Positions 8,536 through 37,116 of a stretch of 64,000 nt of DNA are shown here, piece by piece; within the stretch, counting starts at the first letter, position 1, and each line of letters starts with the position of its first letter. The DNA comes from Natronosporangium hydrolyticum (GTDB lineage: Bacteria; Actinomycetota; Actinomycetes; Mycobacteriales; Micromonosporaceae). Location of the stretch: NCBI RefSeq assembly GCF_016925615.1, contig NZ_CP070499.1, forward strand, positions 248,001-312,000, in the 5' to 3' direction. Under the pieces are notes generated by a model. It saw nothing but the letters and a program-made list of their open reading frames with translations, made no database searches and was not told the DNA's origin. A program made the translations under genes and the position numbers.

Positions 8536-9762
8536 ATGGAGATCCACCACCCCCTCGCTGACGGACTGGTCCTGCGTACCGCCGGCCCCGCGGACCTCGA
8601 CCAGATCGCGGCGCTGCTGACCGACCGGGGCGACCAGGTGGACGCGGTCGACCATCGACTGATCGTCTCCGACCCGGAGGTGGGGTGGGAGGCGTGCGCG
8701 GTGGTGGTCGACGGCGATCGGGTCGTCTCCACCGCCTCGCTGCTCGACGAGGTGCTGTGGTTGGCGGGCCAGCCGATCCCCGCCGGGCAGGTGGAGCTGG
8801 TCGCCACCGCTCGAGACTATGAGGGGCGCGGGCTGGTCCGGGCGCTCATGGGGTGGGCCCACGAGTGCTCCGCCGCCCGCGGCCACCTCGCCCAGATCAT
8901 GATCGGCATCCCGTACTTCTATCGGCAGTTCGGCTACTCGTACGCCATCCCACTGGCCACCGGGCGGCCGCTCACCGCCGCGCCGCCGGCCGCCCCCGGC
9001 CACCAGGTGCACGAGGCGACGGCGGCGGAGATCCCGGCGATGGCGGCGCTGCAGGAGGCTGCGCAGGCCGGGGCGCAGCTGCGAATGCCACACTCGCCGA
9101 GCTCCTGGCGCTGGCTGGTGGCGCACGACGCGACCCAGCAGTGGCTGGTGACCCGGGACGGGGCGCCGGTGGCGACCGGCCGGACCGGCGTGGGCAGCGC
9201 GGGGGTACGCCTCGCCGAGCTCGCCGCCACCGACTCCGCGTCGGCGTACGCGCTGGTGGCGCACGCAGCGTCGCTGGCTCGGGAGCCGGCGGATCCGCCG
9301 CCGGTCCGGGTGTACGAGCGGCCGGGCACGGTCGGCGACGCAGCGCTCGCCGGCTACCTGGGGCCGGTCGCGGACCAGCCGCAGCGGTACTACGCCCGGG
9401 TGCCGGACCCGGCGGCGCTGCTGGCCCAGCTACGCCCGGTGCTCTCAGCGCGGCTCGCTGGCAGCGAGTTCGCCGAGGCCAGCGGCGAGTTGGTGCTCTC
9501 GTTCTACCGCAGCCACCTGCGGTTGCCGTACCAGGCGGGCACGGTGGGCGCGCCGATCCTGGGCGGCACCATGCAGTGGGTAGGTTCGGACGGCGCCGCG
9601 GTGCCACCGGACCTGCTGCCGTCGTTGCTGTTCGGGACTGACGGGTTTGCCGGGCTCGCCCGGATCCACCCGGACGTGTCGGCCGGTGCCCACGCGGCAG
9701 GGCTGATGGCGGTGCTCTTCCCCCCGGTGCACGGCGACCTGCTCAGCTACTACCTGCCCTAG
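8536..9762 (+). CDS. GNAT acetyltransferase with SCP2-like C-terminal domain (Eis-like)
   Basis: A 408-residue protein with the organisation of Eis (enhanced intracellular survival) acetyltransferases. An N-terminal GNAT domain carries the acetyl-CoA loop in ARDYEGRGLVRALMGWAHE, followed by IGIPYFYRQFGYSYAIPLA. A second degenerate GNAT half and a C-terminal sterol-carrier-like domain follow. The frame is open 50 codons further upstream, but the ATG at 8536 starts the conserved fold (MEIHHPLADGLVLR). The substrate is unknown; relatives acetylate amines on lysine, aminoglycosides or peptides. Confidence 0.8.
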   Translation: MEIHHPLADGLVLRTAGPADLDQIAALLTDRGDQVDAVDHRLIVSDPEVGWEACAVVVDGDRVVSTASLLDEVLWLAGQPIPAGQVELVATARDYEGRGLVRALMGWAHECSAARGHLAQIMIGIPYFYRQFGYSYAIPLATGRPLTAAPPAAPGHQVHEATAAEIPAMAALQEAAQAGAQLRMPHSPSSWRWLVAHDATQQWLVTRDGAPVATGRTGVGSAGVRLAELAATDSASAYALVAHAASLAREPADPPPVRVYERPGTVGDAALAGYLGPVADQPQRYYARVPDPAALLAQLRPVLSARLAGSEFAEASGELVLSFYRSHLRLPYQAGTVGAPILGGTMQWVGSDGAAVPPDLLPSLLFGTDGFAGLARIHPDVSAGAHAAGLMAVLFPPVHGDLLSYYLP

Positions 9763-9847
9763 CCTCGGCCGACCAGGTCCGGACCTTGATCATCACGTAG
9801 CTCCGCCGGCCAGCCGTGTCCGTAATGCCCCCTTCTCGTGGCGGTGC

Positions 9848-9878
9848 GGCCGGGTTGGGGTGTCGACCCGAAGATCCA
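9848..9878 (+). repeat. Intergenic repeat module A, copy 1
   Basis: A 31-base box beginning GGCCGGGTTGGGGTGTCGA and ending GAAGATCCA. Copy 3 (36190-36220) is nearly identical and copy 2 (35837-35867) is diverged. Copies 1 and 2 are each followed closely by the module B hairpin. Confidence 0.7.
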
Positions 9879-9885
9879 AAGCCCG

Positions 9886-9920
9886 GCGGCTGTACGACAC
9901 GCGGCGGACCGTACAGCCGC
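9886..9920 (+). repeat. Module B hairpin, copy 1
   Basis: Perfect 10-bp stem GCGGCTGTAC (9886-9895) with GTACAGCCGC (9911-9920) around a GACACGCGGCGGACC loop. Copy 2 (35871-35913) keeps the loop exactly while the stem changes in a compensatory way. Both are followed by GGGTAGTTGATCA. Confidence 0.75.
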
Positions 9921-9980
9921 GGGGTAGTTGATCAACTCAGCAGGGTGCTCGGAACGACCTGCCGCGCCTGAGTGGCCCCG

Positions 9981-10060
9981 CTTGGTCGGTTGGGTGGTGA
10001 TCCACTACGGCGACAAAACGGGTTTAGCCTGGCAAAGCAGGCACCACTCAACCCACCAAG
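9981..10060 (+). repeat. 80-bp inverted-repeat element H, copy 1
   Basis: Arms of 19 bases (9981-9999 and 10042-10060) match at 17 positions and enclose 42 bases starting ATCCACTA. The element at 35717-35794 is the same unit in the opposite orientation. It resembles a MITE or REP-like element; no transposase is seen. Confidence 0.7.
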
Positions 10061-34235: not shown

Positions 34236-35657
34236 GTGAGCACCGCGAAGTCGAAGTCGAAGAGCCGGCCGGGGCGCCCCGGGTATCAGTGTGATGTCTG
34301 CGGGCACCAGCCGGCGAAGTGGGTGGGGCGCTGTCCGGAGTGCGGTGAGTGGGGTTCGGTGGTGGAGCGAGCCCCGGCGCCCACGATGCCGGGTGCCGGC
34401 GGACCGCTGGCGATGCGGACCCCGCTGCAGCCGGCGCAGCCGATCGCGACATATAGCGTGACCCCGGCCCGCGCCCGCCCCACCGGGGTCGGCGAGCTCG
34501 ACCGGGTCCTCGGCGGCGGAGTGGTGCCCGGCAGTGTGGTGCTGCTCGCCGGCGAACCAGGGGTGGGCAAGTCGACGCTGTTGCTGGAGGTGGCGCAGCA
34601 GTGGGCGGCCTCGCCGGAGGCCGACCCGTCGCTGGTGATCTCAGCGGAGGAGTCGGTAGGTCAGGTGCGGCTGCGCGCGGAGCGGATCGGCGCGCTGCAC
34701 GAGCGGCTCTACCTCGCCGCCGAGACCGACCTCTCGGCGGTGCTGGGGCAGCTGGATCTGATCAAACCGGGCCTGCTGGTGCTCGACTCGGTGCAGACCG
34801 TCGGCGCGCCCGACCTGGACGGGGTGCCGGGCGGAGTGACCCAGGTGCGGGCGGTGACCGCCGCGCTGGTGGCGGTGGCGAAGGAACGCGGGGTGTCGGT
34901 GATCCTGGTCGGCCACGTCACCAAGGACGGCAACGTGGCCGGCCCGCGGGTGTTGGAGCACCTGGTCGACGTGGTGCTCCACTTCGAAGGGGACAAGCAC
35001 GCCGCGCTGCGGATGGTACGGGGGTTGAAGAACCGGTTCGGGGCGGCCGACGAGGTCGGCTGCTTCGAGATGCACGAGGGCGGCATCACCAGCTTGCCGG
35101 ACCCGTCCGGACTGTTCCTGAACCGGCATCCGGAGCCGGTGCCGGGGACCTGTGTGACGGTGGCGATGGAGGGGCGGCGGGCGCTCGTCACCGAGGTGCA
35201 GGCGTTGATCGGGGCGGCGGTGCCGGGTTCGCCGCGGCGTACCGTGAGCGGGCTGGATCCGGCCCGCCTGGCGATGGTGCTGGCGGTGGTGCAGCGGTGC
35301 CGGCCGCAGATCAAACTGCACGACCATGAGGTCTTCGCCGCCACCGTCGGCGGCATCCGGGTGGTGGAGCCCGCCGCCGACCTGGCGTGCGCGTTGGCGG
35401 TCGCGTCGGGCGCGCTGAATTTGGGGGTCGCCGCGGATTTGGTGGCGATCGGGGAGGTCGGGTTGACCGGCGAGGTGCGGCCGGTGAGCGCGGTGCCCCG
35501 CCGGCTGGCGGAAGCGGCCCGGTTGGGTTTCCGGCACGCGCTGGTCCCGGTGGGCGGGGCCGGCCCCGGCAGCGCGCCCCCGCCCGGCCTGGACGTGCAA
35601 GAGGTCGGGAACCTGACTGACGCGATGCGGGCCGCCGCAACCGTCTCTGCCCGCTAA
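34236..35657 (+). CDS. radA: DNA repair protein RadA (Sms)
   Basis: A 473-residue branch-migration helicase that aids recombination. A C4 zinc finger (CDVCGHQPAKWVGRCPECGE, residues 14-33) precedes the RecA-like core with Walker A LLAGEPGVGKSTLLLEVAQ. The diagnostic KNRFG motif follows, then a C-terminal Lon-like domain (GLTGEVRPVSAVPRRLAEA). In many actinobacteria radA is next to disA, whose activity RadA inhibits; here they are split by a repeat-filled gap and a membrane gene. Confidence 0.96.
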   Translation: MSTAKSKSKSRPGRPGYQCDVCGHQPAKWVGRCPECGEWGSVVERAPAPTMPGAGGPLAMRTPLQPAQPIATYSVTPARARPTGVGELDRVLGGGVVPGSVVLLAGEPGVGKSTLLLEVAQQWAASPEADPSLVISAEESVGQVRLRAERIGALHERLYLAAETDLSAVLGQLDLIKPGLLVLDSVQTVGAPDLDGVPGGVTQVRAVTAALVAVAKERGVSVILVGHVTKDGNVAGPRVLEHLVDVVLHFEGDKHAALRMVRGLKNRFGAADEVGCFEMHEGGITSLPDPSGLFLNRHPEPVPGTCVTVAMEGRRALVTEVQALIGAAVPGSPRRTVSGLDPARLAMVLAVVQRCRPQIKLHDHEVFAATVGGIRVVEPAADLACALAVASGALNLGVAADLVAIGEVGLTGEVRPVSAVPRRLAEAARLGFRHALVPVGGAGPGSAPPPGLDVQEVGNLTDAMRAAATVSAR

Positions 35658-35716
35658 CTCCGTCCCGCCGCTGCCATCCGCCACCCTAGGTCGTTGATCA
35701 ACTCGCCTTTCGCCGG

Positions 35717-35794
35717 CTTGGTGGGTTGAGTGGTGCCTGGTTCGCCGGTTGGATCCGTATATCGCCCTAGTGGATCACCACTCAACCGACCAAG
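35717..35794 (-). repeat. Inverted-repeat element H, copy 2 (opposite orientation)
   Basis: Arms 35717-35735 and 35776-35794 match at 18 of 19 positions. Read on the minus strand, its left arm and ATCCACTA-G-GGCGA inner start match copy 1 at 9981-10060. The right ends (AGGCACCACTCAACC) also match. The middle differs. Confidence 0.75.
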
Positions 35795-35836
35795 CGGCGC
35801 CTGCGCCGGTCGAGCGCCGGCGTCTCGCGGCCGTGT

Positions 35837-35867
35837 GGCCGGGTCGGATCGTCGAGCTGAAGATCCC
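35837..35867 (+). repeat. Intergenic repeat module A, copy 2
   Basis: A diverged copy of the box at 9848-9878 (shared GGCCGGGT, GTCGA and GAAGATCC). It precedes hairpin B with the same order as in copy 1. Confidence 0.6.
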
Positions 35868-35870
35868 ATG

Positions 35871-35913
35871 CCCTACAGCTGTACGACACGCGGCGGACCG
35901 GACAGCTGTAGGG
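35871..35913 (+). repeat. Module B hairpin, copy 2
   Basis: Perfect 12-bp stem CCCTACAGCTGT / ACAGCTGTAGGG with the same TACGACACGCGGCGGACCG core as copy 1. Two stem positions changed from G-C to A-T on both sides, a compensatory pattern. GGGTAGTTGATCA follows, as in copy 1. Confidence 0.78.
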
Positions 35914-36074
35914 TAGTTGATCAGCCAGCGCAGGCGTATGCGACTCTGCTGGTCAATTAAGACAAGCCTGCGCCCTGGCGAGACGTTCTGCTGCGACTAG
36001 GTGGGGTCCGGTGTGGACAATGCCCGGGTTGCCACTCGACCCACCGGGTGAATTGAGCGGCGCCCCTGCCAACC

Positions 36075-36161
36075 CCGACATGGTTGGGCAGGGAGGGATC
36101 TTGCGTACGGAAAAGTCGGATATTCCGGCGTACAAGATCCCTCCCTGCCCAACCATGTCGG
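36075..36161. repeat. Perfect 29-bp inverted repeat
   Basis: Arms 36075-36103 and 36133-36161 are exact reverse complements, starting CCGACATGGTTGGGCAGGG, with a 29-base loop that is partly self-complementary at its ends. This is the strongest hairpin in the window and is not placed as a terminator of any gene. Confidence 0.9.
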
Positions 36162-36189
36162 AAATGCTGTGGTCTCGCAGCAGCGCGGC

Positions 36190-36220
36190 GGCCGGGTTGG
36201 GGTGTCGAGCTGAAGATCCA
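36190..36220 (+). repeat. Intergenic repeat module A, copy 3
   Basis: GGCCGGGTTGGGGTGTCGA then GCTGAAGATCCA, matching copy 1 at 29 of 31 positions. No hairpin B follows this copy. Confidence 0.7.
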
Positions 36221-36312
36221 ATGAGTGGGCCGCGGCCAGGACACCAGTTCAGCGGCTCCGGTAGCCGCCTTCTGCGCTGCTCCAGGCCTTCCTCAACTAA
36301 CCAGCAGAGTCC

Positions 36313-36331
36313 TATGCGTAAGCAAAGCAAA
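36313..36331 (+). repeat. 19-base motif D, copy 2
   Basis: Identical to 10224-10242 (TATGCGTAAGCAAAGCAAA). It lies 70 bases from the stop of the PH-like gene. Confidence 0.65.
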
Positions 36332-36400
36332 GGCGCCGGCAACACCACCCGAGCTGCCACGATGTCAGATGATCAAGCGCGTTCGGTCCAGCAGACTCGG

Positions 36401-36967
36401 TTAGCCGGGGAAGCCCGTGAGCCGGATCCGCTGCGGCGCCCAGGCGGCGAGTTCGCGAAGCCGTTGGTCGGGTTCCCCGGTGAAGTCGTCCACCCGCAAC
36501 GCGAGCTGGTATCTGCCGCGTACCCCAGCGTTCAGGGTGCGGAGCACCGCCTGGTCGCACCATCGGGGGATATCGCCGGCGGCCCCGGGCAGGCGGCGGA
36601 CCAGCAGCACCGGTTCGTCGCCGGGCCCGGCGGTAGCGGCCAGTTCGGCCACCGCGCTCCACGGCAGCAGCAGGGTACGGAGGCTGCCGGGGCGGACCTG
36701 CAACGCGTAGTGGTCGGCCCGCAGCCGGGGCCGCCGCAGCAGCGCCGCGGTGAGTGGCAGCAGCCCGGCGGCGAGCAGCGTGATGGCGACCGGTGGCGCG
36801 AGCGCCAACGGGTTGGGTGCGCCGTCGGGCAGCCGGCGCGGCTCTGCGCCGAAGAGCAGCACGGTCCCGGCAGCTACCGTGGCCGCGGCGAACAGGTACC
36901 AGCCGAGCCGCCAGAGCGCCCGCCGCGGGAACCGGCGGCGCCATGTCAACGCTGCAGCTTGGGCCAT
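36401..36967 (-). CDS. Membrane protein with PH-like C-terminal domain
   Basis: A 188-residue protein with two membrane helices (about residues 20-40 and 55-75) and a cytoplasmic C-terminal domain. LRADHYALQVRPGSLRTLLLPWSAVAELA is typical of bacterial PH-like (bPH) domains. The ATG at 36967 is preferred over an upstream in-frame start, since the extra residues are unlike the family. It is divergent from disA. No specific role can be read. Confidence 0.65.
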   Translation of the reverse strand: MAQAAALTWRRRFPRRALWRLGWYLFAAATVAAGTVLLFGAEPRRLPDGAPNPLALAPPVAITLLAAGLLPLTAALLRRPRLRADHYALQVRPGSLRTLLLPWSAVAELAATAGPGDEPVLLVRRLPGAAGDIPRWCDQAVLRTLNAGVRGRYQLALRVDDFTGEPDQRLRELAAWAPQRIRLTGFPG

Positions 36968-37116
36968 CGCCGTGGCGTCCTTCCCCGCCCGCGTGCTGCG
37001 TGCGCGTGCCTCGCTGAGCCGCCCCCCGCCCGCCTGACCAGTGCCGGGATGGACCTTAGCGGGCACGGGCCGGCCCACACCAGCACCGTACGGCCGACGG
37101 TCTCTAGACTGAGCGG

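Follow-up and report, generated by a model that had tools for sequence, protein, structure and literature searches.

Two hairpins that lie 26 kb apart in Natronosporangium hydrolyticum raise the question of whether a fold, rather than a string of letters, has been kept at these sites and, if so, what that fold might do. Both belong to the window, the 64,000-nucleotide stretch that spans positions 248001-312000 of a genome of 5,699,854 bp in one contig. A preliminary description had credited them with a common core, a common trailing GGGTAGTTGATCA and a common upstream box, module A; all of these are present in both copies. By itself, the core is only moderately unusual when up to 3 mismatches are tolerated. 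Exact matches to TACGACACGCGGCGGACC lie at 9893-9910 and 35882-35899, with no further window site at this tolerance; shuffled windows held a mean of 0.23 matches, and 3 of 100 shuffles reached two. The longer context around the core is decisive for the reality of the repeat. A BLAST search of window positions 35800-35945 against the genome itself yielded 54 matches at E<=1, some of which represent both strands of the same palindrome. Copy 1 was recovered at E=1.6e-22, together with many more places.

Each window copy is a full inverted repeat with GATC at either end. The best continuous stem of copy 1 joins 9886-9896 to 9910-9920, and the main stem of copy 2 joins 35871-35885 to 35899-35913 with one mismatch. 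Two stem positions are compensatory, as the preliminary description had read them: where copy 1 has G-C at columns 14/48 and 16/46, copy 2 has A-T. Elsewhere in the main stem, copy 1 breaks pairing at column 13/49 (G-G), where copy 2 is intact, and copy 2 does so at column 22/40 (A-G), where copy 1 is intact. What had been taken for a constant loop turned out to be the inner stem of a larger family (CTGTACGACACG / CGTGTCGTACAG), mismatched in both window copies. Predicted folds of the + strand reach -35.7 kcal/mol for copy 1 and -34.2 kcal/mol for copy 2 (z -4.0 and -4.4), with 0 of 200 shuffles as good. On the - strand the values are -33.8 kcal/mol for copy 1 (z -3.0, 2 of 200 shuffles as good) and -32.2 kcal/mol for copy 2 (z -3.3, 0 of 200). 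Our own codon-usage gene calls bear out the non-coding setting of both copies, and Rfam returned 0 matches above the gathering score in the window.

A family of 61-bp palindromes

The hairpin is not confined to the pair first noticed. The BLAST family search scored the best 40 of 111 candidates, and a covariance model was built from 19 aligned copies. Among the best 150 of 5441 candidates scored, the genome holds at least 25 strong places (E<=4e-9) and two weak ones (E 0.002-0.006). The 61-bp consensus of this family, P1, reads GATCAA-nTn-CCC-TGG-AGCTGTACGACACG-nnn-CGTGTCGTACAGCT-CCA-GGG-nAn-TTGATC. Six strong places (174525, 718488, 804924, 1759507, 3847309 and 5057258) lie outside the model-building set. 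Pairing is kept in the four of these at 718488, 804924, 1759507 and 3847309, all members of the solo class described below, which retain 21, 29, 27 and 26 of 29 Watson-Crick pairs (25, 29, 27 and 28 when G-U is allowed); those at 804924 and 3847309 add new compensatory pairs. The place at 174525, with a single deletion, aligns worst of all copies (21 pairs), and 5057258 is too divergent to be read in a common register.

Inspection of feet and flanks by eye divided the copies into two classes, with 5057258, 5490117 and 1461341 left out. The 13 solo copies are near-symmetric over 61 nt and sit in apparently unrelated flanks; the least regular is 718488, and 5192510 alone has a repeat module (P2) within 1 kb. 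The 11 asymmetric copies, both window copies included, have left feet of the GATCC or GATCAAAGG types, not GATCAAnTn. By BLAST, module A (consensus ..CTCGCGGCCG..GGGTTGGGGTGTCGAGCTGAA) lies upstream of nine of them, the exceptions being L085 and L088, and at least one repeat module occurs within 1 kb of 10 (none at L088). By eye, the next 30-40 nt are common to several asymmetric copies. Module A is also found without a hairpin, at window positions 36171-36223 and at L103, L104 and L105 (followed by module B) and at L106 (no module B detected), and the asymmetric copies thus look like chimeras of module A and the right part of P1. The left foot of the window copies looks replaced by module A sequence and their inner stem is decayed; they are probably worn, shuffled versions of P1, weaker in function or relics. 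A sister form, GATCATGAGC..CGACACGC..GCTCATGATC, is seen at 5057258 (L100) and at the weak place 5490117 (L101), at gene ends in both cases. It keeps the P1 inner stem CGACACGC between the feet GATCATGAGC and GCTCATGATC. Ten of the 11 asymmetric copies fall within 1.25 Mb of contig coordinate 1.

P1 is extragenic, palindromic and repeated, and it is a real, structured, lineage-specific repeat family. Its kind is already known, from palindromic repeats and bidirectional terminators; the family itself did not turn up elsewhere in the collections searched. Its inner stem ranks with the most conserved parts, a near-constancy that suggests common descent of the copies from a single sequence as it spread.

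Both window copies are set in mosaic blocks (Table 1). In the gap after 9762 the order is module A, hairpin, P2 and a piece of module B. In the gap after the gene at 34236-35657, whose product we take to be RadA-like from its combination of domains, the order is P2, module A, hairpin, module C, P3, module A and module B. Orthologs of the genes flanking the copy-2 block (84.5% and 53.7% protein identity) stand 54 bp from each other in the sister genome G001, against 743 bp here, which implies that the block was either gained here or lost there. Within this block the beginning of module C base-pairs with a stretch of module B (35935-35970 / 36283-36318), forming a 36-nt inverted repeat with 75% of positions matched. 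As a frame around C to B (35935-36318), this repeat looks like the termini of a small, non-autonomous mobile element. P2, about 85 nt long, has many genome copies, with five inverted pairs 290-690 bp apart among the BLAST matches listed. P3 also has many copies in its own genome and is more widely spread than the P1 hairpin.

Table 1. Hairpins, repeat modules and neighbouring genes (window positions unless a locus is named)
Feature	Position	Strand	Remarks
Gene with GNAT acetyltransferase domain	8536..9762	+	Ends 110 nt before copy 1 (nearest stop codon)
Module A upstream of copy 1	9846..9879	+	94% to the second copy of module A in the copy-2 block
Hairpin copy 1, 61-nt P1 element, asymmetric class	9873..9933	+	G000:C1:257873-257933; covariance model E=1.1e-15
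P2 palindromic repeat (CTTGGTGGGTTGAGTGGTG..) beside copy 1	9978..10060	-	
Gene with AAA/KaiC, LapB zinc ribbon and ChlI domains	34236..35657	+	Ends 204 nt before copy 2 (nearest stop codon)
P2 palindromic repeat beside copy 2	35713..35798	+	20-nt arms 35716-35735 / 35776-35795
Module A upstream of copy 2, running into the hairpin left foot GATCC	35816..35873	+	
Hairpin copy 2, 61-nt P1 element, asymmetric class	35862..35922	+	G000:C1:283862-283922; covariance model E=3.8e-14
Module C	35924..36074	+	Whole or partial repeats elsewhere in the genome, 76-100% identity
P3 palindromic repeat, 87 nt	36075..36161	+	29-nt perfect arms, 29-nt loop
Second module A of the block, followed by module B, no hairpin	36171..36223	+	
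Module B	36224..36345	+	Repeated elsewhere in the genome
Convergent gene, no Pfam match	36401..37078	-	
CRISPR array with cas1 and cas2 (cas2: Cas_Cas2CT1978)	L079:5011-9763		G000:C1:5192510 onward

Paired changes and gene-end position

Solo copies are paired in 359 of 377 cells (95.2%). Both-sided change is seen at 10 of the 29 pairs, in 22 cells. Not one of 500 shuffles reached any of five covariation measures, and slid registers yielded 0-3 pairs with both-sided change. The outer variable block is mostly CTT/AAG, GTG/CAC, ATG/CAT or ATA/TAT (imperfect in 3 of 13 copies, two mismatched and one G-U), the middle block is mostly TGG, TGC, TGA or GGG, and outer and middle forms occur in mixed combinations. 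As 61-nt units, all 13 copies are predicted to fold at -26 to -60 kcal/mol; two taken with short flanks reach -62.0 and -63.6 kcal/mol (z -12.9 and -13.8).

The asymmetric class is paired in 260 of 318 cells (81.8%), which differs from the solo class at P=1.6e-8, with cells that are not independent. Both-sided change occurs at five pairs, a count matched by 11 of 500 shuffles; the covariation score was matched by none of 500, and further pair types did not rise above shuffles (272/500). Mismatches gather in the inner stem, where columns 25/37 and 27/35 are unpaired in 8 and 7 of the 11 copies. The mixed first alignment of 19 copies gave seven both-sided-change pairs, which is unexceptional (89/500 shuffles); further pair types were matched there by 15 of 500 shuffles and the other three measures by none.

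The preliminary description took the paired changes as a sign that a folded RNA or single-stranded DNA was under selection, rather than of random repetition. It passed the checks that could have overturned it: the genome search gave further copies, with pairing kept as described above. The reading also gains from the solo-class covariation, which beats all shuffles and slid registers, and it is tempered by palindrome correction, which could contribute in part. Selection on a folded strand is well supported, a strong but not airtight case.

Genes were taken from our own calls, made with a codon-usage scorer trained on the window, and the null for position placed 57-nt intervals in 134 other gaps of the fetched loci, a reference drawn from those loci and not from the whole genome. 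The solo copies occupy seven convergent gaps, six tandem gaps and no divergent gap. Eleven of the 13 lie at most 65 nt from a stop codon, against an expectation of 19% when gaps are weighted by length (P=7e-7) and 46% per gap (P=0.005). Enrichment in convergent gaps is modest when length-weighted (P=0.037) and stronger per gap (P=0.0003), and the absence from divergent gaps (0/13) compares with 34% expected (P=0.004). One exception, 1657255, lies in a convergent gap at 133 nt from a stop. The other, 5192510, stands 43 nt past a degenerate last CRISPR repeat (20/28 bases), at the end away from cas2/cas1, which is presumably the 3' end of the array, given repeat orientation and leader side (type I-E). 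The 3.7-kb gap at 5192510 had also been considered as a tRNA or rRNA region and is the CRISPR array; Rfam gave 0 matches in L079.

The weak places 1461341 and 5490117 and the divergent strong place 5057258 are all at most 16 nt from a stop. Asymmetric copies lie in six convergent gaps, four tandem gaps and one divergent gap (3585097), and only 3 of the 11 are at most 65 nt from a stop codon. Weaker pairing and rarer stop proximity in this class match the expectation for a fold maintained by selection at gene ends. Where the preliminary description had left a folded RNA and single-stranded DNA side by side, this context points to RNA 3' ends over mobility as single-stranded DNA.

A candidate 3'-end hairpin and its alternatives

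We infer that P1 is probably a set of lineage-specific long palindromic hairpins that act at transcript 3' ends, stopping the polymerase and/or protecting the ends. Transcription through P1 would produce an RNA hairpin of up to 29 bp, which would stop RNA polymerase, shield the new 3' end or both. The palindrome reads almost alike on both strands, and one copy could therefore serve both genes of a convergent pair. If the fold is selected and the letters of the stem are partly free, compensatory changes would follow. The element would also have multiplied across the genome, with some copies becoming part of BIME-like mosaics. Taken together, the symmetry, the position near stop codons, the copy after the CRISPR array, the stability and the compensatory changes are best fitted by a bidirectional 3'-end hairpin.

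Of the features of an intrinsic (Rho-independent) terminator, the solo class presents the stable, GC-rich stem-loop directly 3' of a gene end. The consensus terminator scan found no T-run after the stem at the two L080 solo copies, and no terminator at window copy 1, with three other sites in the same 840-nt stretch. In the 13 solo copies, whichever strand is read, the 15 nt that follow the GGG core contain 3-7 T, for example in the tail CACTTGATCTT. Given the missing U-run, the best reading of the sequence is a U-run-poor element that would be either a non-canonical terminator or a 3'-end protector, two roles that sequence cannot separate. To our knowledge, U-run-free transcript ending in high-GC actinobacteria is poorly settled. 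A terminator has no need of the conserved inner stem, which must be explained by common descent or by a binding protein. A bolder version seems doubtful to us: P1 would be a spreading 61-bp terminator, multiplied within one actinobacterial lineage precisely at gene 3' ends (the end of a CRISPR array among them) without a REP-type transposase, whose covarying outer and middle stem 'codes' surround an unchanging inner stem recognised by a factor of the cell.

Known terminators offer the closest comparison. Ordinary ones have structure, not sequence, in common, whereas P1 is near-identical in ~25 places. Bidirectional intrinsic terminators resemble P1 in forming a stable hairpin just 3' of stops, common to convergent genes, with compensatory stem changes (PMC5381666); they differ in that no U-run was found at the P1 copies scanned. 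For Bacillus cereus terminators, bidirectional ones included, compensatory evolution is documented, with single-arm changes persisting as G-U or mismatched intermediates before the second change (PMC5381666). Paired DNA-uptake-sequence terminators of Neisseria and Pasteurellaceae are inverted pairs of a repeated sequence enriched between tail-to-tail genes; uptake sequences measure ~9-11 nt and generally occur at least 1,000 times (PMC1852404), against 61 nt and ~25 copies for P1. P1 hairpins offer a ready test set, with near-identical sequence and covarying blocks at many gene ends, and may show the path from a terminator to a repeat family and on to absorption into mosaic intergenic blocks.

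A rival reading is DNA mobility. P1 would then be a REP- or MITE-type palindrome moved as single-stranded DNA or a cruciform by a transposase acting in trans, merely tolerated at gene ends, and its covariation would stem from the transposition hairpin. The family is indeed multicopy, extragenic and palindromic, with GATC ends and, in the solo class, unrelated flanks. P1 was not detected at comparable strength in the two sister genomes, the copy-2 block fills a gap that is far shorter in G001, and most asymmetric copies lie in BIME-like mosaics. At solo copy 134995 (L082:4980-5063) a 9-nt direct repeat, GACCTTGGG, is present in two copies, one lying 5 nt before the element and the other overlapping with the right foot; none of the other 12 solo copies has a long one. 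Overall, direct repeats in the solo flanks average 4.5 nt against 4.2 nt in mismatched flanks, a value reached by 99 of 500 shuffles. The Y1 transposase domain (Y1_Tnp, PF01797) has 0 matches in the genome, in a search whose control was positive in 5 of 14 genomes, and the lack of solo copies in divergent gaps also tells against this reading. We regard mobility of this type as unlikely. As to a MITE, with terminal inverted repeats and a target-site duplication, the P1 unit itself is an inverted repeat, and the sister genomes are too distant at the gaps for an exact empty site to be read.

REP and BIME elements (the GTAG and CGTC families) are, like P1, extragenic palindromic repeats that lie partly in mosaic blocks. 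Both ends of the solo copies are GATC-type feet, which pair in almost every copy, and there is no unpaired GTAG/CGTC tag; GTAG does occur in the 3' arm of 9 of the 11 asymmetric copies and of solo 718488, inside the element and not at its end. The unpaired GTAG/CGTC tag is a REP feature and REPs measure 14-40 nt (PMC3733652 and PMC12306157, respectively). A REP/RAYT origin of P1 was considered and set aside: Y1 transposase and GTAG/CGTC end tag are both missing, and the unit of 61 nt compares with 14-40 nt.

Two further readings dispense with selection on an RNA fold. Recent spread of a palindrome, followed by palindrome correction through template switching within the hairpin, would copy mutations from one arm to the other with no selection at all. 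The mechanism is known in quasi-palindromes, and P1 looks young, being restricted to one genome in the searches made. Yet asymmetric copies, though mostly paired, keep uncorrected mismatches at columns 25/37 and 27/35, and of the two classes the better paired one is also the one closer to stop codons; we hold this origin of the covariation to be very unlikely. Less probable still, P1 might be a protein-binding DNA palindrome, the site of a regulator or chromosome organiser, with the inner stem AGCTGTACGACACG as the recognition half-site. Double-stranded palindromes are typical of dimeric DNA-binding proteins, and the conservation of the inner stem would suit one. However, columns 7-9 and 13-16 change in step on both arms, and a double-stranded site offers no obvious reason for complementarity at free letters. 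The solo copies stand at stops and never between divergent genes, which speaks against a promoter regulator, and the asymmetric copies are mismatched within the inner stem itself.

Similar hairpins in other genomes

At E<=0.001 the covariance model matched 6 of 61 genomes, its own included, with far weaker matches in the others (best 1.1e-5). These resemble P1 to different degrees. In G055, hairpins at L117, L120 and L122 carry the P1 inner stem ACGACACGC, with GATCA feet in two of the three; G012 has a short hairpin whose inner stem is similar by eye; and the hairpin in G001, present once and set between two convergent genes, is unrelated. By eye, the matched loci of G002 and G017 show no such palindrome. 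In a Frankiales MAG (L115/L119) the inner stem is framed by TGATCA, and the arms between are not clearly complementary.

Pattern searches reached further. A 27-base exact inner-stem pattern found 0 matches in genome_contigs and 0 in viral_contigs, collections that may not include the own genome, and a looser one found four stretches in genome_contigs, with only the Frankiales MAG framed by TGATCA. The phage and plasmid collections gave no match to one solo copy used as query. The inner-stem pattern occurs in 4 of 397 genomes across the order and the framed pattern in 2 of 354 across the family, the own genome counted in each. The inner stem ACGACACGC/GCGTGTCGT turns up in distant actinobacteria, framed by TGATCA or GATCA in several places. 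There may be an older, or convergent, wider family of P1-like hairpins.

With the copy-2 block as query against the 61 genomes, the hairpin part matched the own genome only, and P3 was also found in G001, G002 and G032, the last from another genus. At L080:4994-6247 (G000:C1:3532293-3533546) a DUF559 gene lies between two near-identical solo hairpins. In the sister genome G002 the orthologs of the genes flanking this pair overlap by our own calls and the DUF559 gene is absent there, and a stretch similar to it lies on another contig. A gene set between two hairpins also suggests integron-like attC sites as a candidate arrangement. The gene could have been gained together with its terminator, or inserted like a cassette.
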